Origin: Tribonema minus
Taxonomy: Eukaryota > Sar > Xanthophyceae > Tribonematales > Tribonemataceae
Assembly (NCBI GenBank): GCA_017506865.1
Contig: JAFCMP010000009.1
Location: forward strand, 481,442-545,441
DNA length: 64,000 nt
Direction of reading: 5' to 3'
This document shows positions 7,193 to 64,000 of this stretch, in pieces. Position numbers and translations under genes: made by a program. Below the pieces are notes generated by a model. The model ran no database searches. It was not told the origin of the DNA and saw only the letters and a list, made by a program, of their open reading frames with translations. Positions within the stretch are counted from its first letter, which is position 1; each line of letters starts with the position of its first letter.

Positions 7193-10100
7193 TCAGTGCT
7201 CCTCGCCGTGGTGGTCGCCGCCGCCGCTGCCGCTGCCGCCGCCGCGTCTGCGGCCGCTGCCGCCGCCCCTGTGGCCGCCGCCGCGCCCGCCGCCGCCGCC
7301 GCCGCCGCCCCTGCAGCACGTCAACAATGCACACGCTTCTGAGTTCCCGATGCATTTCAGCAGGTGCCGACGTGTGTGGAAGGTTGGCCGAATGAGCGCC
7401 CGCATGTCACTAGCTTGATCGCTCAACCCCCCTCGACCCCCCCCCTCCCCCACCCCCACCTCTATCGCCACCGCCACTGCGCACAGCGCTGGCTTCAACG
7501 TGCGCAGGGAGGACGGGCCGGCGGACGCCGCGCGCTGCTGCACTGCGTCCACTGCATATTGCGCGCTCTCACGCACCATCCGGCTTCCGCATTCACCGCG
7601 CGCGCGCATGCGAGCGGGAGGGCGGCACCCATCGGCACACCCAGCCTGTGACACGGAACCACTCGCCTGAACAGCTTGGCAAATACAATCACCATCATGA
7701 ATGCTGGTCCATTGTAGGTACACTTGCCTGAACAGCTCGGCAGACACAACCAGTGCCATCATGCACTTGCCTGAACAGCTTGGCAATACAATAACTACCA
7801 TCATAGGTGCACTTGCCTGTACAGCTTGGCAAACACACTCACTACCATCACACGTACACTTGCCTGAAACAGCTTAGCAAACACACCCAGAACAGCTTGG
7901 CAACCACACTCACTACCTTCCTTGACATGTACACTTGCCTGAACAACTTGGCAACCACAACCAGAACAGCGTGAAAAACCAACACAATCACTACCATCAT
8001 CCATAATGCACTTGCCTGAAGAGCTTGGGCTCGCTCGTCCTTGCCTCCACCGTGACCGCGTGCCCGGCCACGTCCACGCCCTCTGCAGCAGCGGCGCCCA
8101 CCGCGCCCGCAACTGCCTCCGGCTCCACAAACTCTACGAATGCCCATGCGCGCACATCGCCCTCCTGTGCGCGAACGCCAGTTACAAAACGTCAGTTACA
8201 TTAGTCAGTTACATAACATGACCGCATCTGCGTCGCCAAAGTATATAAACGCCCATATGCGCACATCGCCCTCCTGTGCGCAAACGTCAGTTACAAAACG
8301 TCAGTTACAGGCCATCGGTTACATAACGTCACCGCCTCTGCGTCAACAAAGTATATGGATGCCCATGCGTGCACATCGTTGTCTTGCGCATGCAGCAGCG
8401 GGCGGAGGTAGCACAGGTCAATGTCAATTACATACCGTCAGTTACATTACAGTTACAGAGCACTGCCGCAGGATGAGCAGCGGTGCGCGTTGTGAGCGCA
8501 CCGCGCCTTAACTCCATGCGCTTGATGCGCAGGATGACGCTCTGCATCTTAAGACTATAAATGCATTTCGAAAGCGAAGCATTTATGAGTACATTACCAC
8601 CACCAAAGTATGCATTCATGTCTATAAATATCAACGAAGCGCAGCAGCGGCGGCGCATCGCGGGCGCACGAGCCCTTCCTCACCTTCGTGGGCTTGATGA
8701 CGGAGCACTGCCGCAGGATGACGCTCTGTACCTCAAGACTATATAGAAGTATTCATTTTACAAGTGAAGTAGTCCACACGAAGTACATACTTTGAGCCAT
8801 GAACATGTCCTTGCTCAGGCCCCTACCTCCGTGGGCTTGATGCGCAGGATGACGCTCTGTATCTTGCCGTACGCCTCAAACGCGCCGCGGATCACGTCCT
8901 CCGTAGCGCCCTCCGCCGCGAACCCCTTGACATACACGCTGTTCTCCATCTTGGGCGGCGTCGCGAGGCGCCCCTGCGTGCGCGCGGGCCTGCCGCCGCC
9001 GCCGCCGCCACCCTCCTGAGACGACACGGACAAATAGCGCAGATGTGAAAGGGAGACTTGGGGGGTGAGCGCTCCGCAAATAGCACAGGTGTGGAAGGGA
9101 GACTTGGGAGAGTGAGCGCGCCTCAAATGGCGCACATGTGGAAGGGAACTTAGGGGGTGAGCGGCGGAGCCGTGCTGGGGGGGGTTGCGGGTGCCATCTC
9201 CATGAATGACCCTCATTCCGGCGGTGCGCAAAGGCGTGTGAAGGCCGGCGTGCTGCAGCGGCGCAAGCATGGTGCGTGCCGCACACCGCTGACACCGCAG
9301 GGTGCGTTGCTGCTGGGAGTGATTGCATCGGCTAGAGTTGTGTGGTCGCAGCAAGAGGAACGTAAGGCGGGGGGGCGGGGGCGGGGGGGGGGGCATGCGT
9401 CGACCACAACATACCATGCGCGTTCATGCGCGATGCTGATGGGGATGAGTGAACTGCCGGCCCCCTGCGCCCCCCCCCCCCCGGGAGGTGGGCAGCTGTC
9501 TGTACCCCTAACCCTAACCCTAAGCAGAGTGTGGCGGTTGCGGCGACAGTGATGCATCACAGCAGTTACGTACATGATATGGGCACAGGCAGCTGCAGCA
9601 GCAGCACGCGGACGCTCGCGCATGCGCGGCGCCGCAGGAACATAAACTTCAAATGTGAAGTTCACAGAGGGGGACAGGACGGACGGAGGCAGGTGCGAGT
9701 GGAGGGCCGGTGTCGTCGGCGATGATCGCAGAGGAGTGACGTTCCGCTCATATATGCGTGAAGCGCTGAGCGCTGTCGCCGCAGCACTCCAATGGCGCCG
9801 GCATCGACTGCAGGCCCAATCTCAACTGGCATCCAAACTCAACTGGCATCCAAACTCAGCTGGCAACGACTGCAAACCAACCTCAAGTTGCATGTGGCGC
9901 CATGGACAGAGCCGGCTCATTGCTTCATCAAGCTGTGAGCAGCAAGAGACAGCACATTAGCAAGCAGCTAACGCAACATGCAGACCTGCGGAACCCCATG
10001 ACCTTACTAACTTGGCCTTTGTGTATGCGCCTGATCATTCTCGAGCGTAACTTCACCTTTGCGTATGCGCCATTGGCGCGCCCGTTGGCGTTGCCGCCGC

Positions 10101-13100
10101 CCCCCTCCTTGCGCGGCGCTCGGTGGCGCTGAACACTGTGCCTTTCCTGTGTACCAGACGAATGGCATTGTCCAGGGGTCAGCGGGGTCAGCAATCTGAG
10201 GTTGAAACAGTTGTGTTATTAAAACTTTTAGGTACAAATGGCGCTTTTCGAGGGGTCTGGGGTGGGGACAAATGTGTTGCAAAGTTTGGGGTACAAGGCC
10301 CCCCGAATGGCTGTGTTTTGAGAGGTCAGCCATCTGGGGTTAAGATACTAGTGTTAACAACTTGAGGTGACAAGGTGCGTCACAGCTGCACTACAGCTTG
10401 GAACTTAAACCGAGCCGCTGGAGTTAGGGTTAGGATTAGGGTTAGGGCTAACCCTAACCCTAAGTTTCTGGAACACCACGCTGCGCCGAGCCGCTGGAGG
10501 TTTCTGGAACACCACGCTGTGCCCGTCAGTATCACATGGTTGCGAGGCAGCTCCAGAGCTCAGTGTGCTGCAGTTGTCATGTAAACACACAGAAGCTGCA
10601 GAGAGGCAGGTTGTGTACTTTTATTATATTCCACTTGTGGCTGTGGAAATGCCATGTTGTAGGTGTGTCGCCTTGTTCTCACTCTTGGATGTAGCATGCA
10701 AAGCTTGCACGCCACACCCCGCCCCCCACGTTGTGTACTTGTAGTGAAAGTGCACGTGCATATACATACATGTATATATGTGCACAAGGGTAAGGGTAAG
10801 GGGTAGGTGCGCAACCGCAGATATGGGCAATGATGTAATGTATTGCAGGGCCAGCCGGAAACAGGTCGTGGAGACTGGTGCACTTTGCGATAGCAAGTTG
10901 AGTTTGAAACGAATCGTACATAGACATGTGCACAAGGGTAATGGGTAGGTGCACAACTGCAGATACTTCCATGTAGGGCCAGCAAGAAACAGGTCTTGAA
11001 GACTGATTTACTTTACTTGGCGATAGCCGCGGGACTCGCCATCACAGAACAGGCGTGGTGATTCATCACTTGCCAGTCAGCACATAGTAAACCTGCATGA
11101 CTTGCTAAACGGCATCTCTCTGGGTTTGTCGCCGAGTCGAGTCATGACCGATGAGTCATGAGTCACGCACCAGGAGCACGACCACAAGTGTTTGCATGAA
11201 TGGTACAACAGCGATACAACAAACACGCACCGGTAATGACTGAAGCACGCCACCGGCATGACCACGAACACGTCAAAATGGCATTGTCAACTGCAACTTG
11301 TCATGTCATGCAGCCAGTAGCGCACATCCTCCCCTGAATGCCCATCACTGGGTGTGCTTCCAGTACCCATGGCGGCACCATTGATGAAAGCACGCAACGC
11401 GCTGCAAAAAGTGCTTGATCACGCTGGATCATGTAGTTGAAGTACTTCAAGTAGTTGAAGTTGACGCACCTCAACCTCTACTGGTTGGCCGCAGATGGTG
11501 TAGGGGCCGCCGCTCTTGATGGCAGACACCACATCCGCACTCTGCGCAACAAATGCAGACACCAAAAATTGGAAACAGCAACGCATGCAGACACCATGAG
11601 GCGAGAGATGATAACAGCGTCCGGTTGAAATTGCAGTTGGCGATGCTGCGCGCGACACTGTCCGCATGGACATGCAGCAAGTATTGAGTGGTTTGTCTTT
11701 GGCATGAACACATGCTTGCAGTGCACTGAGGCCTGACTAACGGCAACGCACATTTGTGTCTCAGGAGCCAGAAAAAGCGTCACAGGCCAGGCCCCAGCCA
11801 CACAAGGCAACAGCGGAGCCCTGCTGCTGCCTTGTGTCAGCCTCTTCTGCGACGTATCCAGCAGCCGCAATGACAAGGCCCCCATTCAACGAGGCAAGCG
11901 ACGTGGTGGCTGACCATGCATCGTGGATGGCGCGCTGCACCTAACCCTAACCCTAACCCTAACCCTAACCCTAATCCTAATCCTATAATTCTGTGCAAGG
12001 GGCTCGCTGTTAATGGGCAATACGAAGTACTGCCGCTGGTCCGCACTCAAGCACTGAGGTCATGTATGCACGTCAGCAGCTTGCGCAAATTCATGAATTC
12101 GTTCATCAATCGCTAGGGCCCCTTGTTTGTCGTGTGGTGCTGTTGAGGTTGCAATACTTTCTGCTGCAATCATCCCCCTCCAAAGCCGAAGGGTCTTTGT
12201 GCTTGCAAGCGCAAGTAATGCACATCTGTATTGCACCATACGTACTGAGCAAACACTTGTGCCAAGTGTTGTGCGCTATTCGTACATGAAAACATGCCAA
12301 GTAGAAGCAAGCAAACTGAATACTGCGGCTAACCAGAATGACAGCGTCACTCAGCAAAGCGTCGTGCAGACTATAGAGCAATTCAAGCATGCAACAAGAA
12401 AATTCAACTGCATTAACATGATTGGACAAATTCAACTTGCCTCAAACTCCACAAACGCGTACTTGCGCCCTTGCACCGAGGTGCGGAACTGTGAGCTGCA
12501 GCAAGAGCAGCCAATAAAGCGCGCAGCAGGTGGTCAGACAGCACGTACAGTCGTGATTGAAGTGCCCTGCCGTCACCAACTGCCCCATGAGACGCACTGA
12601 GATGTGCCATCAGCAAAAGCCGAGAGAACGCAGCACACATGCACATGGCGACATGCCTAGCCGTGGCACCAGTAAGCGCGATCGCTGGTGGAAATCTGAT
12701 GCTGGCACACCTTGAGCAAACAATACCAGCAACGGCGGTGCCCTGGCGCAATGACTCCGTTGCCGCAAAATCAGAGCTGTGGTATGGCAGTGCTCACCAA
12801 GCTGACAGGTGCATGAATGATGGAACTGCAAGATGACTTTTACACCTGCAGTGATTGATTTTTGCCTTGTTGCTAGTGCAAAGCTGGGCCATCGATACAG
12901 GGCTGAGGGGGCACAGGGGCAGGGTGCAGCTACAGGAGGCTGATCACCTGCGACTGCAAGACGATCATATCCTTCTGCAGACGGCATTACTGTCACGAAA
13001 CAAGAGCTCCCCCTTACCCTGGCCCTTACGCTTAGATCTAGAGGAATTCCACGCCAGATGATGATACTGTAACGAAACGACTCCCATGCAGTGAACCCTA

Positions 13101-15218: not shown

Positions 15219-18200
15219 ATGTTCAGCGAGCACACGCCCTTCTCGGAGCACGGCGACGTGCTGAATGCAGCTCCTTCGGACGAGCCTGGCAAGAAGGCGC
15301 TCGTGGAGGAGCTGAAGAGCAGAGCTAGGGGAGCTTTTGCGGCGAAAAACTACCCCGTGGCAGAGAAGCTGTACAGCAAGGGCATCGAGGTGCGTCAGCA
15401 GCTGTTGAAGTGCTCAAAACGCCGCCGTATGCAAGGCTGCAGATGGTGTCCTTGCTGATGCTTGTCACCTTGCTTGTGGCGTTTGGTTCATCACTGGCTT
15501 TGTGCAAATGCCCAGCTTTATGCTCTGTGCCACATCAGATCAATTGCATTCAGCTCCCACTTGTGTGTAGATGCACTCCTCCTTCCTGCAGCCGCTGTCC
15601 GGTAGCCTGTATTTAGTGTGCTGAGCACTGGTGACAAGGCGCGTAGAGTCCCTCGCATCAGCTCGTGGCAGTACCGTCTTGTCCTTAACAAGGGCGGTGG
15701 GTTACCCAATAAAATCATGCGTTTGGCTACATCGTACAAGCGAAGCGAAGCGAAAGGTAGCTCTGAATCCCCAGGCTTGAACATATTTGGCCGGTGTGTG
15801 CGCTAGCCTCTTGCGCAACATACACAAGGCCTCAAGCTCCCGCTGCGCGCGTTTCCGATACTTCACTTGAAGTGCCCGGTTCCGAGGCTGTTGAAGGTGC
15901 CTACTACGTGTGCTGCTGTTGTGTGCGCAACGGTGCTCCTGTAGCGATCTCATGACAACATGCGTGAAACTCGTGACACCATGTGTGACAAGCAGATCGA
16001 GGGGGTCGGCTTGAATGACTTTGGCCACTGTACCACCCAGGCTGAGATAGTCTTAGAACTAGGCATCACTTCAAGCAAGTGCCCTGCGGGCTTCAACAGC
16101 GACACGACGCTCGCCCAACCGCCCTCGCCATGTCCCACATCTATCATGCAGTGCTGGTTCCGCGCCACGCGCCACTCTGTTTTTATTCATTTAACAACAA
16201 TACGACGCTGGTACAGTCGACCTCGCCACGTCCCACCCCCTCACGCGATGCCGCTCTTGTGCCCCGCTCTCTCCATTCAGGAGTATTTATTCATTAACAG
16301 AAGTGACTGACTTTCTCCGCCCTGCCGCGCAGACGCTGCCGAAGCAACGCTGTACGCGAACCGTTCCGCCATCTCAAAACCGCTGTTGCTCAACGCTGGC
16401 CCGACCGCCAGTGCCATGTCCCACACCTCCTCTCACGCAGTGCCAGTGAGGCACTCCCGTGCCTCACTCTCTCTCTCATTCATTCTCTCACTTCAACTAA
16501 TTCAATGGTAAACTAACGTCATCCGCGCAGACGCTGCCGGACGCGATGCTGTACGCGAATCGCTCCGCCGCGCGCGCGGGCCTCGGGCGCCATGCAGCAG
16601 CGCTCGATGACGCGGAGGAGGCCCTCAAGCTCCTACCTACCTACCCCAAGGGGTACTGGCGCAAGGGGGTCGCATGCCTGGGCCTCGGGGCTTCGCACGC
16701 AGCGGACGCGCTCGCGGCGTTTCAGGCGGGGGAGAAGCTGGAGCCGGGGAATGCGGCGTGGAAGGGGCAGATTGCCAAGGCGAGCGCGCTGATTGGCGCT
16801 GGGGGTGGGGGGGCCAGTGACAGTGCTCAGGGGGGTGGGGGGGGTGCGGCGGCGGCGGCGGCGCCTGCGCGGCAAGCGGTGAAGGCGGCGGCGAAACCGG
16901 CGACGAAGGTGCGCGCGGGGGGCAGAGTTGAAGTATATGTGTGACGCCGATGTGGTTGGTTTATGTGCCTGTTGTCCACCGTTCACTCCGTGCGTTTTCT
17001 GTATGGCGAGGAAATGTGTATGTTGCTTGGGAAGGTGGGCGGGAATTGATGCCAAAGGCGCCGTGTGAACCAGTTAATCAAACTCCTGTTCTATGTCAGT
17101 ACAGGAGCTTTTGTCATGACAGCTGTGCCTGATTTCAGTGTGGCGCTGAATCGGCCACTGCATCTGGGAGGTTATATACAAGCATTGACAGTTGGCTCTC
17201 ATTGTGGTATGTGATGTTATAAGACTGTTGCAGTGAACAAACGCTTTGCGGCAACAGCTCTCTGAATAGCAGGGGGACTGGTGCGTTGTGGAGTTCACCA
17301 TGTACACATGTTGAAGTTCAAGGTCCGCTTTATTACAGTCGCCCCACCTGAGGGCGTCTGTTGCAATGTCTGGCTGCTGCTGCTGATGATGATGATGTGG
17401 TATCCCACACCATTGTAATGTCAAAGCAAGCAGCATGTGAACGCCGGCGGCTGTTGCCGTCAGCAGCTTGGCCATGAGACGAATGTCCTTTGTTATTTGA
17501 GTCCATGTTGCAATTCACTTCATCATGACATATATGTTATGCATGAGGAGCGGAAGAAACGTATCTGAGATCAAGATATTTCAGGAGCATACATGTCTGT
17601 ATACACAGTCACACTGTAGCAGCAGAGAAGTCAAGAAGGGCAGAGCCGTTCCTGTTGTGCAGCAGCTGTTCTGCACTTCAAGTGTCGTTCCTTGAAGTTG
17701 AAGTGTGTCGCAGCACTCAGCGGCATGCCGCACCAGTCACCCGCATTACAGCGGCTACCACAGAGAGCACGCAGCGCGGGCCCCCTCTCACAGCACGTGC
17801 CCCGAAACCCTGCTTTCTCCGATGCCGCATAACACAAGAAAGCAGTTGTGGAGCACTGACACACTTGCACCCCCCACGTTACTGGCCACTGTATTGGCCA
17901 ATTCAAACAGGAGCCGGCGGCGGACGCAGACGTCGAAGCCGCTGCGAAGAAGGAGGACTCCTCGCACCTGCGCGGCTACAAGAAGACGGCGGATGGGCGC
18001 ACGACCACGTACTTCAACAGGGACCTCTCGGAGCACGAGAGGGCGCTGATAGGGGACATTGCACCCAAGAAGCTAGAGGGGGCGGGGCAGGGGGGTTCGC
18101 CGGTGGCGCCGGCGGTCGCAGAGGGGGTCAGCAGCTGGAACGTCGCAGGTGCGCATGCGTGCGTTGTATGGAAGTTGAAGAGTTGTAGAGGTTGCATTTT

Positions 18201-20829
18201 ATGGAAGTTGAAGTGTTCTTCAGCATTGCTCGTGCCTCGACATTGCGCCTCAGAAGTTGGAGGGGGGGGGCACGGGGGTTCGCCGGCGGTGCCGGCGGTC
18301 GCAGAGGGGGTCAGCAGCTGGAACGCCGCAGGTGCGCACGCTCGCATTTCATGGGAAGTTGAAGTATTGTGATGATTGCACTTGTGGGGGGTCAAGTTTT
18401 TCATCAGTGTACATGTTTTTTTGCAAAACAAGGCGTCGGCAGGCAATGAGCTGGGCTGATGAGAGCTGGAGTGTACCCAACCTCTTGAGAAGTACTTCAT
18501 TCGCGCCCTGAGCGAGAATTAATAAAAAGTACTTCATTCTCATCGGCAAGCAATTCAGTTTTTTATGGCAGTTGAAGTATTTTCGGCAGCGCTCGTGCCT
18601 TGTTGCGAACCGAGGCATCCGACTGACGGGGTAGGCTGATGAGAGCTGGAGTGTACCCAACGGTGCAGTGCCGATGTGAATTACTTCCATCGCGTTGGCA
18701 AGCAATTGGGTACTTCGAAGTATACTGGTTGGGACGAGGGCCATCAGGCTCAAATGCTTTTTAAAAAACAGCCGAAATGGGGGCACCGAGCCCATAGCAG
18801 CGTGTCACTGTGGGTATCGATTTGTACGCAGTGTGTAGCGCTGCGGGTCGTCTTCATATTGCACGTCGCTCAACGAACTTAAGTTCAAAGCTTAGTTTTG
18901 CCTGCTGTGCGCTTGCGTACTGCTTCAAGGCACAGCGACGCGAACGGACACAAGTTCAAGCTTGAGTTGCCTGCAATGCACTTGCGTACCGCGTCAAGAC
19001 ACAGTCGGAGCGCACTGGCTTTTGTCCATCAGTACGAAAATGCATACCCAAGTTCATGGCGTTCACACCCTGCTGAAAGAGCGCAGCACCATCCCTGTCA
19101 GAGTCGCAACCTCTAGCGCTCGCCACGATCGCGCCGCGCGCGACACGTCACACGCAGACCTACCCTGGCTTAGGTCCCTCTCAACGAAAGCTTATTTGGC
19201 TCAAGTAAGCGGCACAACTCCCCACAGTGCGCGCGGCGCCAAACACAATCTTGAGGCACTTCAAGTTGAACTTGTGCGTCTCCCCCCGGTGCAACAACGC
19301 TCAGAAACGCGGGAAGAGCGTGACGCATTTGCGCGATATAGTGAGGGTATTGCAGCGCCACCACTCTTCACCGCAGCATCGCTCCCATGCGGCACCTGAA
19401 GCGCTGTTGTGCCACAGTCGCAGACACGCGACACCGCACGGAGTGCGCGCACCCACGCTGACCCAGTCGGTTGAAGTTGAACTTGTGCACTGTCACCTCT
19501 GCGCGCGACAACGCTCAGGGACGTGGGAAGAGCACGGCGTGTCTGCCTGGTGCAGCGAGCGCATCACCCATCCAATTGAAGTTGAAATTGAAGTTGAACT
19601 TGTGCACCCCCCCCCCCCCCCCCCCCTGTGACAACGCTCAGGGACGTGGGAAGAGCGCGACGCGTCTGCGTGGTGCAATAAACGCATCACGTAGTCAGTT
19701 GAAGTTAAACTTGAAGTTGAACTTCTGCACTGTCCCGCCCCCCCCCTCGTGACAACGCTCAGGGACGTGGGAAGAGCGCGACGCGTCTGCTTGGTGCAGC
19801 GAGCGCATCACGGCGCTGCTGTCGGGCCTGGTGGCGGACGCTCCGCCGGGGCCCGTGCGCATTGCCAAAGTTCAAGAGGTGACGGGGGACGCCTCCATCA
19901 CGTTCTCGCGCGGCAAGCGGCGCTCCCTCTTTGAGTTCTCCGTCAAGGTGAGCTTTGAAGATGTTCGCATCTATGTGTGTGTGATTTACACGCATGATGT
20001 GCTGTTCGTCACGCTCTAGTGTCGATGTTCTGTGTGCCCTGTGAACGCGCGTGTGCGTGTCAGTGCACAGCATCACCGCATGCGCTATGCAGCGGCGTAT
20101 ACCTTGGTATTTGGCGTGCTCAAGTGCGTATGCGCGTGTGTGAAGTTGGGCACCTGCCATACGTCCGATCTGGAAGTAAGGATTAGAATGAGGGTTAGTA
20201 GGCGTGCCGTGCCAAGACTGCTGCGTGCAAATTCATGGAGATGCCTTGGCTTACTGCTCGGTCCCCGAGCAGCTGCATGCGATCATTCAGGACCGAGTGC
20301 TTCAAGCTTCCCCCTCCCCGCGCCTGCAGCTCGACAGCATATGCTCCGCTGCATGCTGCATGCCTATGACTGCCGATTGAGTGAGTCAAGCGCACACCGA
20401 GCGCTGTCGTTGGTACAGCTGACGTCACCCTGTTGCGGTCGGAGCCGCCGCACTTCAACTTCTCCGCACGCTCACGCTGCTGCTCACTATGCGGTGCATG
20501 CAATTGCGGTTGGTGCCGCCGCATTTCAATCTCTCGGCACGCTCACGCGGCTGTTTTCCTCGTCGCGCGCCGCATATATGCGTCATGCTGCGCAGGCGGA
20601 CTGGGAAGCGCAATGGCCCTGCGGCCTCGCAAAGGGCACCATACACTTCCCCGACATGAGCTACGACTGCATGGGCGAATACGAGGCGGTGGTTACGGTC
20701 GACAGCAGCACCGCGCCCGCTGCGCGACCGCTTGTTGACTCGTTTGTCAAGGCTGAGGATAGGGGGCTGCGAGCTGCCATGAACGCCAAGTTTGCGCAGT
20801 TTGTGGAAGAGTTCAACAGCAAGCAGTGA
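15219..20829 (+). CDS. TPR-AHA1 protein, predicted Hsp90 co-chaperone
   Basis: Exons: 15219-15389, 16531-16908, 17911-18148, 19763-19947, 20596-20829; phases agree and give 401 residues. Residues about 20-140 form TPR repeats of the Hop/PP5 type (LYANRSAARAG, YPKGYWRKGVACLGLG), which clamp the EEVD tail of Hsp90. Of the clamp residues, Lys, the Asn of ANRS and the Lys/Arg of PKGYWRK are present, but the usual first-repeat Asn appears to be Arg (KSRARGAF). A Gly/Ala-rich linker precedes GYKKTADGRTTTYFNRDL and IGDIAPKK. From about 255 the sequence matches the AHA1 N-terminal domain (SSWNVAGTWEERDASAW, VTGDASITFSRGKRRSLFEF, GTIHFPDMSYD), which binds the Hsp90 middle domain and stimulates its ATPase. 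The separate AHSA1/START-like C-terminal domain of yeast and human AHA1 is absent. The ATG at 15219 is the first that leads into the TPR helices. Confidence 0.87.
16328..16376 (+). repeat. Decayed copy of the exon 2 acceptor and start
   Basis: The stretch after CGCGCAG at 16328 (ACGCTGCCG...CTGTACGCGAACCG) copies the true exon 2 start at 16531, with substitutions and an indel that spoil the frame. It lies about 200 bp upstream of the real acceptor. Confidence 0.8.
18300..18345 (+). repeat. Decayed copy of the exon 3 end and donor
   Basis: GAGGGGGTCAGCAGCTGGAA followed by CGCCGCAGGTGCGC repeats the real exon 3 end at 18121-18154. The duplicated block extends upstream to about 18255 (GGCGGGGG...TTCGCCGG). 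Confidence 0.85.
19258..19800 (+). repeat. Four-unit acceptor array before exon 4 (last unit is the real exon)
   Basis: Units are headed by TTGAAGTTGAACTTGTGCA or a close variant, then a C-rich run, then ACAACGCTCAG and the exon start GGACGTGGGAAGAGC. Copies lie at about 19258-19345, 19475-19560, 19577-19690 and 19700-19800. Only the last leads into the open AHA1 exon; one earlier unit still encodes TWEE..VSAWCSERIT. Confidence 0.88.
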
Positions 20830-22257: not shown

Positions 22258-25200
22258 TCATGCGCTTTCGCCGCCACCGCCGGCTCCCGCTGAACCCCCG
22301 CCGCCGCCGCCAGATGCAGCTGAGCCTCCGCCACCGCCACCATCCGGGTGCTGCTGGTTGTGAACGCGGCAGAGCTGCAGCTTGCCCACCGCGGCCTGCA
22401 GCAGGGAGGCAGCGCACAACGCGCGATAATGCCACGATGATTGGCGCATGTAAGAGCGAGCGATGATGTGCGGGGGTGCTTGCTTGGGCCTCGGCGCTAT
22501 CCGCCGCTGGCAGATTTTTGCATGCGCCTCGTGATTCAACGCCTTTTCAGGCTTGCAAAAGTGAGCGGAGCTGCATGCGCCCTGCGAATGGGCACAGCAC
22601 GATGCGTTCCATGCGCGCCCGCTGCACCGGCGATGTGTTGCTGCTGTGACACTATGTGCTAGCTCCAAGACGGCAGCGATGCTGAAGTGTCCACCATCTG
22701 AAGTATTTCAATATGTTGTATACATAGTGATCCCCCACACACCCTATTGCAGCGCTCCACGCGGCAGCAGATGTCGCCGCCGTGCGCAATGCAGCACTGC
22801 TCACCTCTAAAAGCATTACTTCCAACATCAACCCGCACAATTTATCAGTTCTTCATCAGCTTTTTGAAGAAGGTTGTCAGCACAATGATCCCCCACGCAC
22901 CCTATTGCAGCGCTCCATGCGGCAGCGGATGCCGCCGCCGTGGGCTGCGCAGAAGCGCGTGCGCCCGCGCGCGACCTTCTCGCACCCCGCACGCTCGCAT
23001 AGCCGCCCGCCGCCGTGCTTCACGCAGAATGGCGTCGAGCTCTGCGCGCTCTGCAAAGGCGAGAGGGCGGCGAGAGCGGCGTCCAGTTGTGAAACGACAG
23101 GCAGCGATGTGATATAAACTTCAACCCGTGAAGTTGATGTAGAACGGCGTCGAGCTCTGCGCACTCTGCAAGGTGCGAGAGCGACGCGCACTGAGACAAG
23201 CAGAGACTTTGGGATGAACTCCAACACTTGAACTTGCAGCGGTGTCAAGCTTTGCGCGCTGTGCACGTCACGTGCACAGAGTGTGAGACAAGCAGAGATT
23301 TGAGATGAACTTCAACACTTGAACTTGACGCAGAACGGCATGGAGCTCTGCGCGCTCTGTGAGGTGCCAGAGGGCGGTGGGAGCGGTGTGCGCGTGCGGA
23401 GCGTGACATCTGGGTTTGATGTGGCAGAGATCGTGTCACAACTTCAACAGTTGCAGTTAAGGGGCGCAACTGTGCAAGTGACTGTGCTTGACGAAGAACG
23501 ACATGAAGCTTTGCGGGCTTTGCAAAAGCGAGGGGGCGGCGGGAGCGGCGTCCGCATGCGGTGTGTCACAGTAGGGTTGCCAAAACCGTACCTTTTTTAC
23601 AAGTATACTCCGTAAATCGTACCGTAATTTGACCGTAAACTCCTGCCTATTGAGGTTTTGGAGATCTTCAATACCATTCTTTCGTCTGGCACAGTAAGCC
23701 CGAAGATAAACCTCAGGGCACCCGACGCTGTGGTCAAGATCAGCATGGTTTACGCTACAAATACCGTTGACCGTATTTTTTCAATAATAGCGTTTTGGCA
23801 ACCCTAGGTGTGTGAGACGGGCAGAGACGCATGCGGTGTGTGAGACGGGCAGAGATTTGTGATATACTTCATCACTTGAAGTTGAAAGGAGCGCAGTCAT
23901 GACGGTGCGCGCGCCGCCGTGCTTCCCGCAGAATGGCGTGGAGCTCTGCGCGCTGTGCGGACTAGCATGTCCACGTGCGGAGTGCAAGACGGGCAGTAAT
24001 TGTGCAGACCTCTAGGACCTCCGCAACCCAGGGTTGGCAAGGTCCCTTACCGGACTGTGCTGTGGGCGAAGATCGTGCCAGATTGTCAACAGTTGAAGTT
24101 TACAGTTGCAGTTGCATGCGATGCAATTGCGCCTGGCAATGCCCGCCGCGCAAAGCAGGCACTCGGCAGCTGGTGCCTGCTGAGCTGTACGCAGGACGGT
24201 ATGGCAGCGCTCCTTGACGACAGCAAGGTCACCACAACTGCTAGCACCTTTGAGCGTCAACTCAAGCTCAAGATGTGACATGCCTGAACATGCGCAGCAA
24301 ATAATCCGCTGACACAGCAACCCAGTGCAGTGCTGCCAGACCAACGCGCGCAGCACGGGACACAGTGCCAGAATGGCATTCAAATCCTTTGACCACGGCC
24401 CGTTTTGTGCTTGACTTCAACTTATGGTGACATACCTGAGGCGTGCACGGCCCGCTGCAATGCGCGAAAAGTGACGTTCAAGTGGTGACTCTCCTAGGAA
24501 ATCGCAGTCGCAATCATGGTCGGCACGCACATGCCACAAAAATGCCCCTCGAGAAGCTGCATGAGCAACTGCTGGCTGTGTGTGCAGGCCGTGATGACAC
24601 CCACCTTGGAGCAGCCGGGAGCGGTGCAGCGCTTGCCGCCGCCGTGCGCGGTGCACAGGGAGCTGCCGCCCACCGCCGCCTGCAGCAGCACAGCGTGGCG
24701 CGACGATTCGTCAAAATGTAGCCACTTTCCCGCAGCAGAGTTATCAAAATGATTCAGGCAGACACGTCGGCATTGTGGACACCAAGTCGCATCGAATGTG
24801 TGGAGCGACGCGACAGCGCTCAGAGGTTTGAGTGCTTCACTCATCTACATACCCCTACTAGTCATCCTAAGCCCTAAGCTCGCTGCCATGTCTGTCAGGG
24901 GCGAATGCAGCAGCTGCACGACAGCAGCACGGTGCAGCGCGACAGTGCATCACTGTGAAGCGCGTTTCCCGAAGAGTTGCTTAACGTAAACGACGCAGGC
25001 AGACAAGTCGGCATGTGGACGGTGAGGGCACCAATTCGCATCAAATGTGCGGCGCGCAGCAGCAGCGCTCAACCTGCTGCTATTGATGCAGCAAATGTGA
25101 ACATCAGCTGCTGCGGTTCAGCCCGATAATAACGTCTGCCAGGGGCGAATGCACCTGCAGCAGCTCAACCGTGCTCAACCGCGTTTTGAAGCAGTGCTCA

Positions 25201-27463
25201 GCGGCGAGCATCGCTCGACCGGCAGGGCTGCACACATCGCCAAAACTCGTTAATGCTAGCAGCATACCGCACATTACCTCTAGCACGCTGGGGCAACTAA
25301 TTGCAAGGATGTTGAAATCAAGTAGTCCCTTAACCACGTCCTGCTTCGCGTATACGGTTGCGCGACATAAAAAAAAAAGACTTGCCTTGGTGCAGGAGGA
25401 CATGCTGCAGCGTTTGCCGCCGCCGTGCGCTGCGCAGAAGAAGCGATCCCGAGCGCCCTGCCCCAGATCATGGAAGCGCAATACGCATCGTCAAAAGTGC
25501 ATACTTCAAAGTATATACTTCTTGAAGTATATATATGGGGGCGCAATGACCAGCACCGACAGACACGCGCATGACTGCTGGCACCTGCACGCCCCCTGGT
25601 GGCGTCCTTTCAAGCCATTGCATGTGGCGTCAGAGTCGAGCCTATGCCGAAAATCCTTCCCGTTCACTTCTGGCACGCGCTTCATTCATTATGCATCGCC
25701 GGGCAAGCAAGTGCGGAGCGTCAAAGATGCGTATGACATCACCATGACGCATCAAGGCACATGCCAACACGCAGCGTTCTGTGCATCTCGCAGACAGGCA
25801 AACCTCGCTTTCTTCACCAGCAAATGGTTGTACTGTAAGCGCCGGTTTCGCTCAGCGTGCAGAGCGCATCATCGGCATGACGCCTTCAAATACTGTATTT
25901 CTCAACATGAACAAAAATCATCGAGGCACGCAGCACTCCTGAACCTACACGCGGTGCGGGCGCGTTGTGACTGCCACCTATCAGCTGTGCTAGTAGTGAC
26001 GGCCGCCAATCGCGTCTGATAGCGCTGCACGCCCCTTGCAGCCGTGTGGCAGTGCTCACCGCGGTGCCTTTCCGCAGTGCATAGCGCATGAGTGCCGCTG
26101 TGCTACCTACCTGCTTGTGTGACGTCTGTCGCTCATGTGAGCACGTGACCTCTCTGACCCTGTGCAGAAACGTGTCGTGTTTGTCCCCCACAGCATTGAA
26201 TTGCGCCTTGCAGTGTGACAGACACTGCGCGCGCATGGCGTTGAGCATCATCGACGCACGCAGTTCCCATCGCGTATTCTGCGCTTGTGAGCAGAGCACT
26301 CTGCAGCCCTAATTCTAGGCGCGCGAGCCCTAGTTTTAACCCTAACTCTAACCCTAGGCGCAGGCGGGCTCGATGGCAGCGCTCTGCGCGGCGCTCACCT
26401 TGGTGCAGCCCGGGTGCGTGCAGCGCCGCCCGCCGCCGTGCGCGATGCAGAACTGCGTGCTGCCCTGCGCCGTCTGTTGCGGACGCAAACACCCAACAAC
26501 GCATACAGCGGGCGTGAGCGCGTCAGAATGAGATTGGCATCTGCGATGCAGAAGTGAGTGCTGCCCTGCGCCGTCCGCTGCGGCCGCACAAGAACACAAA
26601 AAGACACCCAATAGAACATACAATGGTCGTGAGCGCGCGCAGCCCTAAAGGCCCAACAAAGCATACAAGTACAATGGTCGCAAGTACAATGGTCGTGAGC
26701 GCGTTGGAATGAGATTGGCGCAGCGCGCACCGGAGGAGCTGGGTGTTGGCCAACGTCACTCTGCAGCTAGGAGTGGTACGACCAGCAGCACCAGCGGTGC
26801 AGCTAGGAGTAGCGGCACAACAGTGCCACGACACCACCAGCTGCAGCAGCAGACACGCGCGTCTGCTACTGGGGCGTGCAGCACGGAGCGCAAAATGTGC
26901 GGATTAACTTCAAAATGAACTTCAAATCTGTGCATGGCACCAGGGGTCAGCTGTCAGTCAATTCGCCACTGGCCTCGCGTGCCGCCACGGTGCACGGTTC
27001 TTGAAAACGTGGTGTGCGGTGCCGCACACATCGATCAGGTGAGCACGATGACGATCAGGTGAGCACGATGACGCGATGGAACAGTGTGCACCAGGAAGTA
27101 CTGTTGCCCAATCGCACTCAGGTCCGACCAACGCCTGCGGCGCGCAGAGCATATGCCTTGCAGTTTGCTAGCGAAGTGATGTGCCCGCACTGTTACACTA
27201 ATACCCTTAAATAGAAGTACAACTTCACTTGTACGCAGCATCTTCAGAACACAACCCCCCCGTGCTCACTTATAGGAAGCGCGAGTGCCCAAGCATTGAG
27301 CCAGCACTTCCGGCATGAAAGAAGTACTTCTATGTCAACTTTCAGTGACAGAAGTTGTCAACTTTGACTTCAAGTGTGACATGCCACGGAAAAACAGAAC
27401 GCACCTTTTCGCAGCCGGCATGCGCGCACTGCTTGCCGTGCTGCGCAGGCAGCGCTGCGCCGC

Positions 27464-27494
<31 letters not shown>

Positions 27495-28320: not shown

Positions 28321-28405
28321 CATGGAAACGAATCAAAAGATCGTAGAGCTCCAGGTGACAAGGGATGGTTAGCCATAAGTGCCTTCCACCAATAACCGTG
28401 GTCGC
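28321..28405 (-). repeat. Dispersed repeat of about 80 bp, copy B
   Basis: Reverse-strand copy. By eye it is about 90% identical to the copy at 38790-38872, sharing GACCACGG, GGTGGAAGGCACTT, GGCTAACCATCCCTTGTCACC and GATCTTTTGATTCGTTT. Confidence 0.85.
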
Positions 28406-47923: not shown

Positions 47924-50900
47924 ATGGAGCGGCCTACAGATGCAGAAAGGACGTTTGAGTTCTTGGAGCCTAAGTGCGCCAGCAAGCCTAGCGATGAGCA
48001 TGTCCGGAGCTACCAGGAGGCAAATGGCGACAGCATCGTCAAAATTTGCCATCAGCATTACGAGTCTGTAGCACTATGGTCCGATGCAGCAGCGACCATA
48101 CGGCGCGAGCTGGTCGGCAGGCTTTCTCCCTTCATGAGCCCTTACGGCCAGATGCCCCTCGTCTACGCCGACTGGACAGCGACTGGCAGATCCCTGGCGT
48201 CCATCGAGAGCTACATCGCCAACGAGGTCATGCCAATGTATGGCAATACCCACACCACCACAAGCATTACAGGCAGTCAAAGCACCTGCTTCCAGCACGA
48301 GGTAAAGAGTCCTCCTGCTGCAGTGCACTGAATGTGTTCGACGGAGGCTGTTTTGCTTGCACTGCAGCAGCAGCACCTGCAGCAGCAATGAGCAATTCGG
48401 TGATTCAGCTGCTCCTTATTGTTGTCTTGCTACGAATGCAGGCCAGGCAGCTGGTGGCGGAGTATGTGAATGCCAAAATCACCGGACGAGCGTCGGAGGA
48501 CTGCGTACTGTTCACAGGAAATGGCGCCACTGCCGCCGTCGCAAAGCTGGTGCAGGTAGGTGAAACAATTTGTCACCTCCGCATACCTCTCGAAATGCCA
48601 ACGACTGGTCCATCAAGTTTAGGCCCCTACAAGAGCAAAGTCGTCATTCCCTGGCCGCTGCAGCACTGTCAACACCAAGCAACACTCATTGCGCACAAAC
48701 AATGCCAGCGTTTGGTGGCGATGGCCCGTCAGTTACCCCAACCTGCAGTCTGCCTGCCAAATCAATCGCCAACACCAGCGCTGCGCCCCCCCCCCCCCCG
48801 GAACCCCCCACTTCCCCTCACCAATCCCATCCCCCGCCGCAGGCGCTCGGCCTCTGCCAGCAGCTGCCCCCGGGGACCCCCCGCAACCAGCGCCCCGTGG
48901 TTTTCGTGGGCCCCTGGGAGCACCACTCCAACCTCCTGCCGTGGCGCGAGAGCTGCGCGGAGGTGGTGATGCTCCGCGACACGGCGTGGTCGCGCCGCGG
49001 CGAAGGCGAGGGAGAGGGAGCGGGTGTTGACATGGAGCATTTGGAGAGGGTGCTGGTGGAGTACGCGGGGCGGCCGCTGGCGGTGGGCGCGTTCAGCGCG
49101 GCGAGCAATGTCACGGGGGTCACGTGCGATACGGACGCCATTTCAGGTACTTCAAAAGAAGAACTTGAAGTATGAATGCGGTTGCGGTACGCGGGGCGGC
49201 CGCTGGCGGTGGGCGCGTTCAGCGCCGCGAGCAACGTCATGGGGGTCACGTGCGACACGGATGCCATTTCAGGTAGGTACTTCACAAAAAGTACTTGAAG
49301 TATGTTCGTTTTTGGTCTGAGGTGCACATCACGTACGCTTTGAGTACACATTTGGCGTTCAGCGCAACGTCACGGGGGTCACGTGCGACACGGACGCCCT
49401 TTCAGGTATGCCATGTTGAAGCATCGCAGTGCAACTTGGGTACACTATGGGTACACTGCGTGTTCAGCGCCGCGAGCAACGTGCAGGTATGCCATGTTGA
49501 AGCACTGCAGTGCAACTTGGGTACACTATGGGTACACTGCGTGTTCAGCGCGGCGAGCAACGTGACGGGGGTCACGTGCGACACGGATGCCATTTCAGGT
49601 ATGCAGTACGCTTTCAGTATGCGGAGGTGTGCAGTACGTACGCTTTCAATATGCACCGCATGTACGCTGTAGGTACACTTCGAGTTCAGCGCCGCGAGCA
49701 ACGTGATGGGCGTCACGTGCGACATGGATGCCAATTCAGGTGTGTACGAGTTCAGCTCATGTTGCACATGGGTACAATTTGGGTTCAGCGCGGCGAGCGA
49801 CGCGACGGGAGTCACGTGCGACACGGATGCCATTCAGGTACGCTGTCAGTACACGGTGCACCTCGAATGCATTTGGGTACACTTCAAGTTCAACGCAACG
49901 TGGCGGGGGTCACGCAACACGGACGCCATGTCAGATGCGAGTTTGGTTCACCCCGGGTACACTTTGGGTACACTTAAGGTTCAGTGCTGCCGGCGAGCCA
50001 TGTGACGGGGGTTATGTGCGACATGGACGCTGTTTCAGGTACAATACAGCAACATGCCCTCCAGACAGTTGATATGAGTATTACAAAAGCGATATTTTAA
50101 CGGGCACAATGCTGACGATTTGGCGGGATGAGGTGACGTGTGACCTGGATGGTGTATTTTGAAGTATCAGGTATCTGCTACTTTGAAGTACAAGATCCTT
50201 AGACCAGCACGCACATCAACTTCAACATCCGTGCAGCTGCGAGTGTCTAAGCATGAGGAATAGGCATGCATATCTGAATCTACCGACAATCCAGAAAGCA
50301 TCACTTTGCCGCATTATCAGCACTGGTGTTTGCGGCGCAATTCAGGCGACCAAGGCATGTGCATTGCAGTGCAGATAGAGGGCACTGTCGGTGGTGCCAC
50401 TATTGCTTCAACACAGGGGCAGAGGCTTTGGCTGGCTAGCGCTGCCAGTGCCGCTACCAGATTGGGCCTCGTGTGTTTCAGTACAGTTGCTGGGGGTCTT
50501 TCTGACGCTGACCGGACCCACATGTCACAAAATAATGACCAGCAAAAGGCTTGCCGTGCACACATGCAGTGCACTCACGCTTCTTAAAGGTAGGATGAGG
50601 GTGGCGTGGAACTTGGCGACTGCTGCAGCATAGTAACTTCTTTTTAATGTTCGTCATCAATGTCGCTCATCATTTCCGGGCTGATCTTCACCTTCAAGTT
50701 GAGCACTGGATGTTACGCCAGCGACTTAGAAGCACGTTTTGGTCTCAGCACTGCTGAGCCCGGCCAAGGGCCGGCATGCTGTCAACTTGAGCGGCACTCA
50801 GTACCTACTTTTGCGGTGGCAGTCCGTGCATGCCACAAGTACATACTTATTACCATATGTCCACACCGAGTTGCAAGTGCCGAACACTGGGTCCCTGTCC

Positions 50901-57304: not shown

Positions 57305-57751
57305 GTGCAGCCCGGATCATTGGTGCACCGTCAGCTACCATGTGTACTGCGCACATTGATGAGCGCGGTCCAGCGTTATTCACACAGTACAGTGAGTCTT
57401 GATCTACGATACTCGGAAGTGTGATACTTGAAGTGATCTTCTTCGGTGAGGCGCTTGTGTGCCATGGTGCATGCATTTTGCACTGGTGGCGCCCTCTCTC
57501 GCTTGACGCTGCTGCTCGTCTCGACTCGATGCGCCATTGGTGACGCATTCGGCCGCGAAGCAAACTTGCCAGCCTGCGTGTGTTGTCAGTAGCCTCTCGC
57601 CATTGCACTCACTACAGAACTTCACATGGGCCTACATGGTGACTCGCAGCAGGATGTGACCACACCGTACAAAATCAAACAGACGCGTATGTTCTGTGCA
57701 TACATTTTCCTATACCCCCGCCCCCCCCCCCCTCTCACCCCATGTCCGCAG

Positions 57752-60700: not shown

Positions 60701-63027
60701 CTACGTGCGCTCCCTCACGTCGCCGCAGGTGCGGTTCGAGCTGGCGTGCGCGACTACCTTAGGTAGTTACAAGTACCAGTGTGTGAGCTCCAAACTTAGT
60801 ACGCCGCAACAGAGGTCTCGGGAATCACACGCTCCGCGCACGTGCTACGTGTATGCCGCCTCTCTCGCATTGCCGTGCGATGCGAGCTGGCGTGCGCGAC
60901 AGTAGACCCTCAAACGGCCTCCTTCGACCCGTCGCCGCTCAAGCCCTACATGGCAGCGCTCGGCCTAACCCTAAGTACCACCACCTGAGCGATGCCATCG
61001 TGAATACAAGTGCACGAGTTCCAATTTCAGTACGCCGGCGCAACAGAGGTCTCGCTCATCACACCCTCTGCGCACGTGCTATGCCGCCTCTCTCGCATTG
61101 CCGCTGCAGGTGCGATTCGAGCTGGCGTGCGCCACAGTCGACCCGCAGACGGCCTCCTTCGACCCGTCGCCGCTCAAGCCCTACATGGCCGCGCTCGGCG
61201 TCAATTACCACTACCTGAGCGATGCCATCGTGGAGAGGGCGCGCGCGAAGTTGCAGGGAGACAGCCTGTGCGCCTTCTGCAGCCGCGCCAAGCGCGGCCT
61301 GCTGTACACGTGCTGCAGGGACAACGGCTACAACAAGGTAACTGCCAAATCTCAAACTTGATGAAGGGGGGATTGCCCCGCCTCCCGCTCGCATGCATTC
61401 GGCGGCTAGCTTACATGCCTTAGGATGGCTGGCTTGCATGACTTGTGCGCCTTCTGCAGCCGCGCGAAACGCGGCCTGCTGTACACGTGCTGCCGGGACA
61501 ATGGCTACAACAAGGTAGCTTTGCCAGCATTCAAAGTTTTGAGCGCCCCACGCGCACATGCGTTTGGCGGGCACTTGTGTCTTCGGGCGGCTAGATTGAC
61601 TGGTGCTGATCCAGTGACAAATGATAACAGTAGCGTAACTGACGGATTTTGGATTTGTCAATAATTGAAAATATTCCAGTCCGTATGCCTTCAGGCGGCT
61701 AGATTGACACTTGCTGCAGGCAAACATGGTCACAGTAATTTCATTAGCTAGATTTTGTTTTTGTTGAGGGATGCAACAGTTTAGGCCCAGATGCCTTCAG
61801 GCGGCCGACTCAACTTGTGCCTGGGAGAACATCTACAATAAAGTAACTGCAGGGTGTGCGGGTGCGCTGAGAGGTTTGCCAGCGCCTCTCATGCCTTTGG
61901 GTGGCTGGTTACCTGGCGTTGCGTTGGTTCAGTGAGGTCCTCAAGACCGAAGATTTGGGGGCAGAGTGCGGAAGGCTGTGCGCATGGCACACACGAACTG
62001 TAGGATGTAAGCGCTGCGTGGCGCATGCGGTAATGGCATCGACGGTTGTGAGTGTACAGGTGTCAAAGGCCTGCTGCATGCAAGCACTCTTTTGTCCCTC
62101 TGCTGGTCTTGCATGCCCCCCTCCACCCCCCCCCCCCCCCCCCCCCCCCGTGCTTTGCTGATCTCATTCCTGCCCTGGGCTGTTGGCACACCCTGGCGCG
62201 TCCCGACAGCGCGCCCTGCCTATCCGGTTTACAGATGATCCTTGATAAGGTCATTTACGGATGTTCTTGTCCTAACTGAGCACTGTTGCTCATCGTCGCC
62301 GCTGCTCCGCTCATTACTGTCCTGGCGCGTCCCTATAGCGCGCGCTGCCCATACTGGCTTACAGATGATCTTTAAAAAGGTCCTGACTGAGCACTGTTGC
62401 TCGTTGTCGCCGCTCCGCAGCTGGTGCTCGCGCAGCACCTGGATGATCTCGCGGAGAGCTTCATGATGAGCTTCCTGCACAATGGCCAGGTGAGGCATGT
62501 ATATATGTATGCATTGAGGCATGTATGTATGTATGTATGTGTATGTATGCTTCCTGCACAACCGCCAGGTGAGCGTTGTGTGCAGATCTTGCAGCGTGCG
62601 GTGCTGGCGCTGCTACACTTTGGCCATTTCGTGTGTGCAGGGTTTTTGCAGGTGGCACTAGACTGAGCTTGAATCATCCCAACATGAAGTGATGCTGCTG
62701 AGTCCTGAGCGCTTTTATTGTAATGCTCGCAAAGAATGCAATAGTGGCTCGATGCATGATGTACTGTGTTCAGTGGCTAGGTTTAAGCGTCGAACATCAA
62801 CAAGGAGCAGTTTATTATGCGAAATAGAGCACTCCAGTGCTGGCGTCAGTGACAAGGCTGTTTCAGCACATGAAGCTGTTGTTTCATGTCATCAGTGACT
62901 CTCCACATGCCAAGACTGAGCGCTGCCGTGTTCGTTGCTGGCGCCGCAGACGCGGACCATGAAGGCCAACTACTTGAACGACGCGGGCGACGTCTCCATC
63001 ATACGCCCCCTCATCTACACGCGCGAG
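57752..63027 (+). CDS. TtcA-like PP-loop ATPase module (3' part of probable fusion, runs off the window)
   Basis: Exons: 57752-58176, 59043-59130, 60082-60189, 61110-61337, 62421-62489, 62950-63027, then further exon(s) beyond the window. The first exon encodes [11 protein letters not shown], a Gln/Pro-rich linker, then YYNKYPKRE and a Gly run. The catalytic part has the PP-loop [14 protein letters not shown], the Fe-S-type [16 protein letters not shown], the HLDD motif and [10 protein letters not shown], in the order found in TtcA. TtcA enzymes adenylate a tRNA cytidine or related base and insert sulfur. The first exon follows a poly-C tract and CCGCAG acceptor, so it is spliced to something upstream; phase 0 matches the aminotransferase exon ending at 57304, and phases stay consistent to 63027. 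The alternative is a separate gene with an unseen short first exon. A conserved C-terminal C-x2-C is expected past 64000. Confidence 0.85.
58230..58305. repeat. AGC/AGT trinucleotide repeat
   Basis: Imperfect CAG/TAG triplet run just inside the intron after the Gln-rich exon, which itself carries CAG codon runs at 57820-57870. Confidence 0.85.
58690..58885 (+). repeat. Decayed acceptor-side copies of the 59043 exon
   Basis: CAGTGTTGCCGTAGCGGACG followed by CCGCCTG at about 58728-58755 copies the true start at 59041 (CAGCGTTGCCATAGTGGACG). Further ACTGACAGCG strings recur nearby. Confidence 0.75.
59239..59430. repeat. Two TTAGGG tracts
   Basis: Tracts at about 59239-59264 and, degenerate, 59393-59430, separated by repeats of a GTCAGCGCTCAACTGTT-type string. 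Confidence 0.85.
59930..60345 (+). repeat. Copies flanking the SGGKDS exon on both sides
   Basis: Upstream, 59932-59975 copies the acceptor and exon start (GGAGTGG.GCATGAT.GAGGAGGG). Downstream, 60312-60345 copies the exon end plus donor (CCAGCGCAGAGCGCCAGTGA followed by GCAAT). The real exon is 60082-60189. CTAACTTCAA strings repeat before the acceptor. Confidence 0.87.
60720..61850 (+). repeat. Copies flanking the CxxC exon on both sides
   Basis: Acceptor-side copies lie at about 60722-60757 and 60868-60985, the second covering [16 protein letters not shown] almost intact. Donor-side copies lie at 61437-61516 ([20 protein letters not shown] intact) and, as a stub, at 61826-61850. The real exon is 61110-61337. 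Confidence 0.92.
62210..62420 (+). repeat. Two-unit tandem repeat before the HLDD exon
   Basis: Units share CCTGGCGCGTCCC, TTACAGATGATC, AAGGTC and CTGAGCACTGTTGCTC, ending in a CGCCGCTGCTCCGC or CGCCGCTCCGCAG acceptor. Only the second has a working CAG. A poly-C run lies at 62126-62150. Confidence 0.85.
62495..62576 (+). repeat. GTAT microsatellite and exon end copy after the HLDD exon
   Basis: A GTAT/GCAT run (62497-62548) is followed by GCTTCCTGCACAACCGCCAG and gtgagc, a copy of the exon end and donor at 62470-62495. Confidence 0.88.
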
Positions 63028-64000
63028 GTACGTACGTACGCGCAGACAGACTGAGTCAGTGCTCAGCATCAGCGCACGCGCGCATGTACGTACGTACGCA
63101 CCATGTGTATGTATGCACAGACAGTCTGTGCTCAGCACAAGCGCACACGCGCACGAGGCACGTTGAGATGTAGTGCGCAGCGCTCGGCACGTGAAGTTTC
63201 ATGTGGCATGATGAGCAGCTGCATGCATAGTGTATCTTGCACGCCGCGAAAAAAACGAACACTGTACGGCGCTGGGCGCGTTCGTGGCCACATGGCATGA
63301 TGAGCAGTGTTGCCGTCCCGGCGCAGGCGGGCTCGTGCTGCACAAGTCGTGGCCATCTTCCGTGGCAGGGCGTGGCCACCACCAGACTTTGCTGGCAGGT
63401 TGTCCGCGCCGCCAACTGGCATGCCTGCCGGCGTTTTTTTGCCACTGAGACTGGCAATAGCTGACGGACACTGCAACTACACATTTTGCCGATGTCGCAA
63501 GCCCATCAACACCTGCTTGCTTGCGATGCAATGATGCAGTCGACACCAAGTTTTCTCATCGTACGTGGTTGCAGACGGTTGATTGTCCCTAATTGATTAG
63601 GTGGATGCCTCCCCGGGTCTGCTGCACCTCACCACCACTGCTGTGCGCAAACAAGTTCAAGAAGTCACGAAGGCTTTCGATCAGGAAATTCCACGGCAGT
63701 TCTGAGGAAACAAATTCAAAACTCCGCACGTTCACATTGGAAAGTCTGCTCAAAACGACGCAAGATGATTGAGAGAACGCATTTGAACACTGTCGTTGCA
63801 TTGGACCCTTTAGCAAGGTTATCTTGTTTTTGAAATCAAGAACAGAACACCAGGGCTGAGCACTGTCACATTGACCTTCGTGCCGGTGGCCACGCGCGAC
63901 TTCTCAATGAGTGCGCGCATGAAGCTCGAGGAGGCTCGCACCCTCAAAAACCGCTCAATCTTTGCAAGTCAAGAAGCGAGCTCTGCACTGTCACACTGAC
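63028..64000 (+). other. Intron of the PP-loop gene at the window edge
   Basis: Begins with donor gtacgt and GTACGTAC-rich repeats (63028-63105). Near 63880-63935 the sequence reads ATRDFSMSARMKLEEAR, resembling the segment expected after the IRPL motif, but no acceptor supplies the required phase. The strings GAGCACTGTCACATTGAC (63858) and GAGCTCTGCACTGTCACACT (63979) look like successive acceptor-side copies, so the true exon probably lies just past 64000. Confidence 0.5.

Follow-up and report, generated by a model that had tools for sequence, protein, structure and literature searches.

How introns lengthen, and how the splicing machinery tells a real splice site from its own copy lying 100 bases away, are open questions, and both are raised by a stretch of 64,000 nucleotides from the xanthophyte alga Tribonema minus (contig JAFCMP010000009.1, hereafter the window), the introns of which carry degenerate copies of the junctions that bound them. 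Site and copy have a common origin here and differ mainly in position, so that RNA reads could measure the positional rule that separates them.

Junction copies in the window

Comparison of the window with itself yields 93 same-strand repeat pairs, spaced by no more than 4 kb in 90 cases, and among the pairs lying less than 2 kb apart the direct ones number 89, the inverted ones two. Five junctions belonging to four genes were checked singly, with 60 random stretches as the null for each: the copies score between 35 and 183, when the best random stretch reaches 25 to 30 (Table 1). The first-pass annotation of this DNA had described degenerate junction copies in introns, on both sides of exons, and they are indeed present at these five junctions as well as among the 24 genes from elsewhere in the genome that are considered below. 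Six of the eight copies of the aminotransferase-like donor array have GT at the aligned site or at most one base off. The single RRM-like intron contains two donor-side copies of exon 1 facing two acceptor-side copies of exon 2; on the donor side, the copy at 8512-8550 extends to the junction, its GT being lost, and the copy at 8712-8733, 22 nt long, ends 16 nt before the junction. The TtcA-like acceptor copy at 60875-61002 comprises 123 exonic nt.

Table 1. Exon ends used as queries and the junction copies found beside them, in positions of the window; null maxima are those of the random stretches
Feature	Position	Strand	Details
Aminotransferase-like gene, last 120 nt of exon (query)	49027..49146	+	open frame and GT donor read directly; donor from 49147
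Aminotransferase-like donor array, eight degenerate exon-end copies	49187..50038	+	identity 0.81-0.94; scores 35-147; null maximum 30
Aminotransferase-like donor array, copies 1-4	49187-49272, 49364-49405, 49458-49482, 49539-49598	+	
Aminotransferase-like donor array, copies 5-8	49681-49739, 49783-49834, 49895-49934, 49991-50038	+	
RRM-like gene, exon 1, last 120 nt (query)	8827..8946	-	frame read; donor from 8826
RRM-like exon 1, donor-side copies 8712-8733 and 8512-8550	8512..8733	-	scores 39 and 63; null maximum 25
RRM-like exon 2, acceptor-side copies 8331-8378 and 8237-8273	8237..8378	-	scores 46 and 39; null maximum 26
RRM-like exon 2, first 100 nt (query)	8065..8164	-	frame read; first base of exon 8164
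TtcA-like gene, first 150 nt of exon (query)	61110..61259	+	frame read
TtcA-like acceptor-side copies 60729-60754 and 60875-61002	60729..61002	+	scores 42 and 183; null maximum 25
Aha1-like donor-side copy of the exon ending at 18148	18239..18331	+	score 135; identity 0.89; null maximum 27

The gene names need a word of explanation. Aminotransferase-like and TtcA-like come from a reading of motifs, with no database match, and PDB searches with these two ORFs returned no match. The RRM-like label reflects an RRM_1 Pfam match below cut-off (E = 0.044), and the Aha1-like label an Aha1_N match, likewise below cut-off (E = 0.0089), in an ORF some 2 kb downstream of the exon concerned, exon and ORF making one gene in our own reading. 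A Pfam search with 20 window ORFs produced matches at E <= 0.05 for six, two of which lie above the curated cut-off. Exons in the window are too short for Pfam, so that conserved genes, modelled by spliced protein alignment, served for the test at gene level. The window also contains interstitial telomere-like CCCTAA runs (9492-9523 and 11925-11980), and ORF translations from other parts of it show LTLTLT or NPNPNP strings, as CCCTAA-type runs would yield. Several local repeats occupy 22715-26588, a region with an ORF that has a WRKY19-type zinc finger match (22877-23311, minus strand), and some of them may be coding repeats, not junction copies.

A sample of conserved genes

In the genome assembly (158 Mb, 554 contigs), 24 conserved genes were modelled from E. 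coli K-12 protein homologues with a purpose-written spliced protein-to-DNA aligner permitting only GT or GC donors and AG acceptors, the loci having been picked by homology and exon number prior to any inspection of repeats. They consist of 11 heat-shock genes, three clpB, five ftsH-like, two gcvP, two tktA and one carB, and belong to only six families, hence they are not 24 independent samples; three of the four genes that were taken later are ftsH-like paralogues with similar exons. Unmodelled homologue matches are many, among them HSP70-like ones with few exons, most of the ftsH-like ones and a carB on contig C509. Some modelled donors are GC instead of GT, as predicted from the protein alignment. 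The gcvP pair witnesses the quality of the models, with 14 exons per copy, all 13 intron positions in common and GT-AG ends in 26 of 26 introns. Its two members (L009-L012, on C67 and C32) have 89.6% protein identity and differing intron lengths and copy numbers, and this and some other gene pairs may reflect an old large-scale duplication. The genome further contains 92 light-harvesting matches; among the PDB matches of two light-harvesting ORFs are fucoxanthin chlorophyll a/c and ACPI/CAC antenna proteins, LHCI-11 being the top match of one, which makes a chlorophyll-c alga likely. A search for the phycoerythrin family gave no match, and neither did its control.

Introns shorter than 150 nt were dropped from the counts. 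Exons shorter than 40 nt were dropped from the 20-gene and four-gene copy counts and from the counts of repeat components, and those shorter than 60 nt from the controls with 60-nt queries and from the exon-length tests. First and last modelled exons were omitted from the exon-length tests and retained in the copy counts of the four later genes. Copies that stop over 2-3 nt before the junction were omitted from the analyses of homologous pairs, period, divergence and decoy scores.

Exon ends recur in their own introns

In the first 20 genes, exon-end copies were found in the flanking intron at 28 of 195 donors and 17 of 199 acceptors, when none of 1970 unrelated pairs of exon end and intron reached the cut-off; the corresponding counts in the four later genes are 17/39 and 7/39. 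The array load varies widely from gene to gene, six of the 11 heat-shock models being devoid of copies; among donors of exons of at least 130 nt, copies are present at 8/10 in the carB gene of C82 and at 4/4 in the ftsH-like gene of C346. A search of 60-nt exon ends against their own introns, proposed for the whole genome along with the first reading, showed such matches to be commoner in this sample than in unrelated introns. Over 16 genes and 177 introns, 28 of 153 queries made of the last 60 exonic nt outscored each of their 40 nulls from unrelated introns, when 3.7 were expected, and 22 of the 153 had a score of 50 or more, a value attained by none of 6120 nulls; the first 60 nt exceeded all nulls in 20 of 155 and scored at least 50 in 9 of 155. 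Neither the far end nor the middle of exons can be accepted as a source of copies, as controls with the wrong, far exon end (4/111 and 1/107) and with mid-exon queries (3/55 above nulls) remained near chance. Reverse-complement controls gave 8/153 at donors, somewhat above expectation, and 2/155 at acceptors.

Short-range repeats are not confined to junctions, since mid-intron 60-mers recur within their own intron above chance (18/132), as do the first 60 nt (33/132) and the last 60 nt (14/132) of introns, with 3.2 expected in each case. Counting intron sequence only removes the help from exon conservation. Of 72 such intron-only repeat components, 44 overlap an exon-end copy or lie within 40 nt of one, a further 18 are found no more than 35 nt from a junction, and the remaining 10 are interior, under a linking rule that is generous. 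The number that is linked to junctions depends on the rule, being 35/47 by hand and 40/47 by a looser automated rule, and with exon flanks included 55 of 66 components are not interior and 11 are. The expectation for uniform placement, about 40% linked, is our own rough estimate, made for the hand rule.

Anatomy of the copies

Local pairs in the 20 loci are direct in 99 cases and inverted in two. Copies end within 2 nt of the junction for 38 of 46 on the donor side and 21 of 26 on the acceptor side, and continue past the junction into intron sequence; multi-copy ladders are visible in the sequence. The period of the nearest copy ranges from 85 to 274 bp (85-200 in 37/41) and is not tied to three (16, 14 and 11 cases for the three remainders), which argues against a protein-level role of the copies; with remainders so even and no frame kept, a coding function can be discarded. 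In the first 20 genes the nearest copies have an exonic part of 20-80 nt and an intronic part of 38-211 nt (41/41). An upper limit of about 80 nt on the exonic part, true of these 41, fails in the later genes and in the window, where it reaches at least 120 nt, and the intronic minimum of 38 nt falls to 35 in the later genes and to 12 in one weak partial copy.

Real junction and copy diverge by 9.8% over their exonic and by 21% over their intronic sequence, a ratio close to the factor of two that drift of copies and introns, with exons under constraint, should produce. Between copies (26 pairs), identity is 0.86 in the exonic part (14% divergence) and 0.765 in the intronic part (23.5%), an excess of exonic identity that plain neutrality does not predict, in a measure that is biased by the selection of copies via exonic similarity. 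The first-pass annotation had also seen divergence often rising with distance from the exon, as if junctions had been duplicated time and again and had then decayed, and this could not be upheld: the nearest copy is more identical than the farthest in 9 of 17 arrays and less so in 8, the Spearman coefficient over all copies is -0.21 (p = 0.08), and it is by alignment score that one obtains 14/17 (14 versus 3).

Copies and intron length

The median intron measures 620 bases where copies are present (n = 43) and 475 where they are absent (n = 165). Homologous introns allow a closer comparison. Four homologous gene pairs have 31 intron positions in common; copy number differs at 19 of these, and in 17 of the 19 the longer intron is the one with more copies (p = 0.0004). 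In the C190 heat-shock gene, for example, four introns of 793-1726 bases hold two to four copies each, and the matching introns of the related C522 heat-shock gene measure 279-531 bases and hold none. Copies are present in both homologues in gcvP introns 1, 3 and 6 and in one ftsH intron, and arrays common to both homologues may be old or may stem from parallel events. The pairs other than gcvP have five to seven intron positions in common, the remaining ones being unshared. The recent pair hsp_C522a/b, with six common introns and no copies, was left out of the 31 paired introns; the C522 heat-shock genes L015 and L016 lie in opposite orientation some 24 kb apart, with 97.7% protein identity, and neither has a junction copy that reaches the cut-off.

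In the 20 genes, 9.3% of the intron sequence (105.9 kb) is recognisable array, and in the four later ones 27% (of 28.5 kb), shares from which older copies may be missing, having passed beyond recognition. The claim that tandem duplication at junctions is a main route of intron growth retains its core, namely duplications that span junctions on both sides of introns and a copy number that tracks intron length, but the statement that introns are 'largely built' from such copies was too strong.

Exon length and decoy splice sites

Two properties of the copies, absent from the earlier reading, are new here: they depend on exon length, which is the strongest new result, and the decoy sites that they carry are of near-normal strength. 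With 60-nt queries and internal exons, exons of at least 130 nt have copies at 57 of their 275 junctions, shorter exons at 8 of 136. The donors with copies are 3/68 for exons below 130 nt and 35/102 for those of at least 160 nt; at acceptors, where the effect is weaker, the counts are 5/68 and 15/103. Within-gene permutation gave 1/20000 for the first 20 genes, 7/20000 for the four later ones and 0/20000 for all 24.

Decoys were scored with a weight matrix derived from copy-free junctions. The 10th percentile of real sites is reached or exceeded by 30 of 38 donor decoys and 16 of 21 acceptor decoys, with mean scores, decoy versus real, of 6.15 versus 8.65 for donors and 4.70 versus 7.87 for acceptors; this lower mean may indicate that site strength helps in the choice of the real site. 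The dinucleotide is kept in 28/38 donor copies (GT) and 16/21 acceptor copies (AG). Ten of the 38 donor copies lack the T of GT, versus about 10% expected from the exonic rate (p = 0.003), an excess which hints at selection against use of the decoys, some of them having perhaps been silenced. To judge from the protein alignments, splicing would ignore the decoys. Taken together, exon-length dependence and near-normal decoy scores point to a filter at the level of splicing.

How junction copies may come to persist

On balance, we believe that tandem duplications spanning junctions survive where exon definition still picks the original exon. Recurrent short tandem duplication of a segment straddling the exon-intron border would lengthen introns, the duplicate falling on the intron side, intronic from birth and carrying a full decoy site. 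The spliceosome would keep pairing the acceptor and the donor that bound the original exon, and it is this pairing of the nearest sites across the exon that would leave the mRNA unchanged for duplications on both sides. Where acceptor copies lie downstream of donor copies in one intron, no acceptor-donor pair defining a false exon would ever arise. The copies would later decay, presumably in a neutral way, and may be re-duplicated into ladders. Splicing would then act as a sieve, through which duplications persist best beside long exons, where use of the decoy would yield an over-long exon; a short exon extended by one unit would still be of ordinary exon size, so that the decoy would compete and the duplication be lost, a loss that would produce the exon-length pattern observed. 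We may go further, and tentatively picture introns as continually renewed from their own exons, with strict exon definition hiding copies that look usable and exon length deciding where this happens, a generalization about which we have more doubt than conviction.

The main rival to a splicing sieve is mutation that targets exon borders, in which breaks, paired nicks or replication slips would duplicate the border itself, splicing merely tolerating the outcome; exon-positioned nucleosomes, R-loops or co-transcriptional splicing are its possible drivers. It would account for the finding of 62 of 72 intron-only components near a copy or a junction, when our rough estimate for uniform placement is about 40%, and for an exonic part of 20-80 nt in all 41 nearest copies of the first 20 genes, while exon-length dependence could mirror the nucleosome occupancy of long exons or result from some other chromatin-linked bias in duplication. 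The exonic parts of at least 120 nt in the later genes and the window fit it poorly, however, as does the broad period (85-274), and a look by eye established no breakpoint motif or consistent microhomology; we consider such targeting unlikely. Were short tandem duplication uniform in all non-coding DNA, junction copies might simply be those that stay recognisable via the conserved exon. The recurrence of mid-intron sequence, next to which the donor excess is only about two-fold, speaks for this, as does the existence of interior components (10/72, or 11/66 by the other rule), but with the visibility bias removed there are still 62 linked components against 10 interior ones, albeit under the generous rule, and the exon-length effect persists with queries of an equal 60 nt; we find uniformity improbable.

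That the arrays should be maintained for a function, for example tuning of splicing or buffering of the real site, would agree with decoy scores that mostly lie within the normal range, with exonic parts that differ less among copies than intronic parts do, and with the copies present in both homologues of gcvP introns 1, 3 and 6 and of one ftsH intron. Nevertheless, 19 of the 31 pairs of homologous introns are unequal in copy number, donor copies lack the T of GT more often than expected and no frame is kept, and we give this possibility very little credit. Insertion of introners or other transposable elements has a precedent, introners being known from a green and a stramenopile microalga (PMC7789003, in the part available), but it can hardly be reconciled with exon-end copies that match the adjoining exon when unrelated pairs give 0/1970, nor with 13/13 common intron positions in the gcvP pair; copies some 10% diverged from the exon and found in many contigs are likewise hard to obtain from assembly error, and we scarcely believe in either origin.

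To return to the sieve by exon definition, exon-length dependence, seen in 20 genes and again in four others, makes it directly testable. On the bolder and more doubtful picture of introns continually renewed from their exons, tolerance by the splicing machinery would for the most part set intron length as a side effect, and the arrays would constitute a natural library of ignored decoys, numbering thousands if the rate of the 24 genes holds genome-wide.

Relation to known systems

In the open-licence literature, the matches listed include single boundary-crossing duplications and no genome with recurrent two-sided junction arrays. A general scheme close to our case is the tandem genomic duplication model of intron gain (Rogers 1989; Hellsten 2011; Gao and Lynch 2009, cited in the available parts of PMC4974935 and PMC3443670). 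As there described, duplication supplies new splice sites and the protein can remain unchanged, as would be the case here, and the direct tandem copies of gene sequence that the model entails are what we observe. In the model it is an exonic AGGT that is duplicated to give a new intron, whereas in T. minus the segment already holds a junction: the copies end within 2 nt of an existing junction in 59 of 72 cases, not at an exonic AGGT source, and as regards intron gain the gcvP pair has 13 of 13 intron positions in common although lengths and copies differ, while in the other pairs, with their unshared positions, gain may have occurred.

Introners, as presented in the available parts of PMC9860276 and PMC7789003, resemble our arrays in their large-scale contribution of repeats to introns, protists included. 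They spread one element into many genes, whereas the exon-end copies of T. minus are each like the border of the exon beside them; as to an element common to unrelated genes, none of the 1970 unrelated pairs reached the cut-off, a count made with exon-end queries only, and as to terminal inverted repeats, inverted local pairs are rare (two in the window, two in the 20 loci). A further likeness is to the RNA-dependent RNA polymerase gene of potato, in which a duplication crossing the intron-exon boundary gave rise to an intron whose donor is a cryptic exonic one (PMC4974935, in the part available). In both cases a tandem duplication spans an existing splice junction, and the duplicated segment crosses the intron-exon border in our copies too; the potato account is that of one event and one new intron, whereas in T. 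minus existing introns would lengthen, in many genes and on both sides, and often by ladders.
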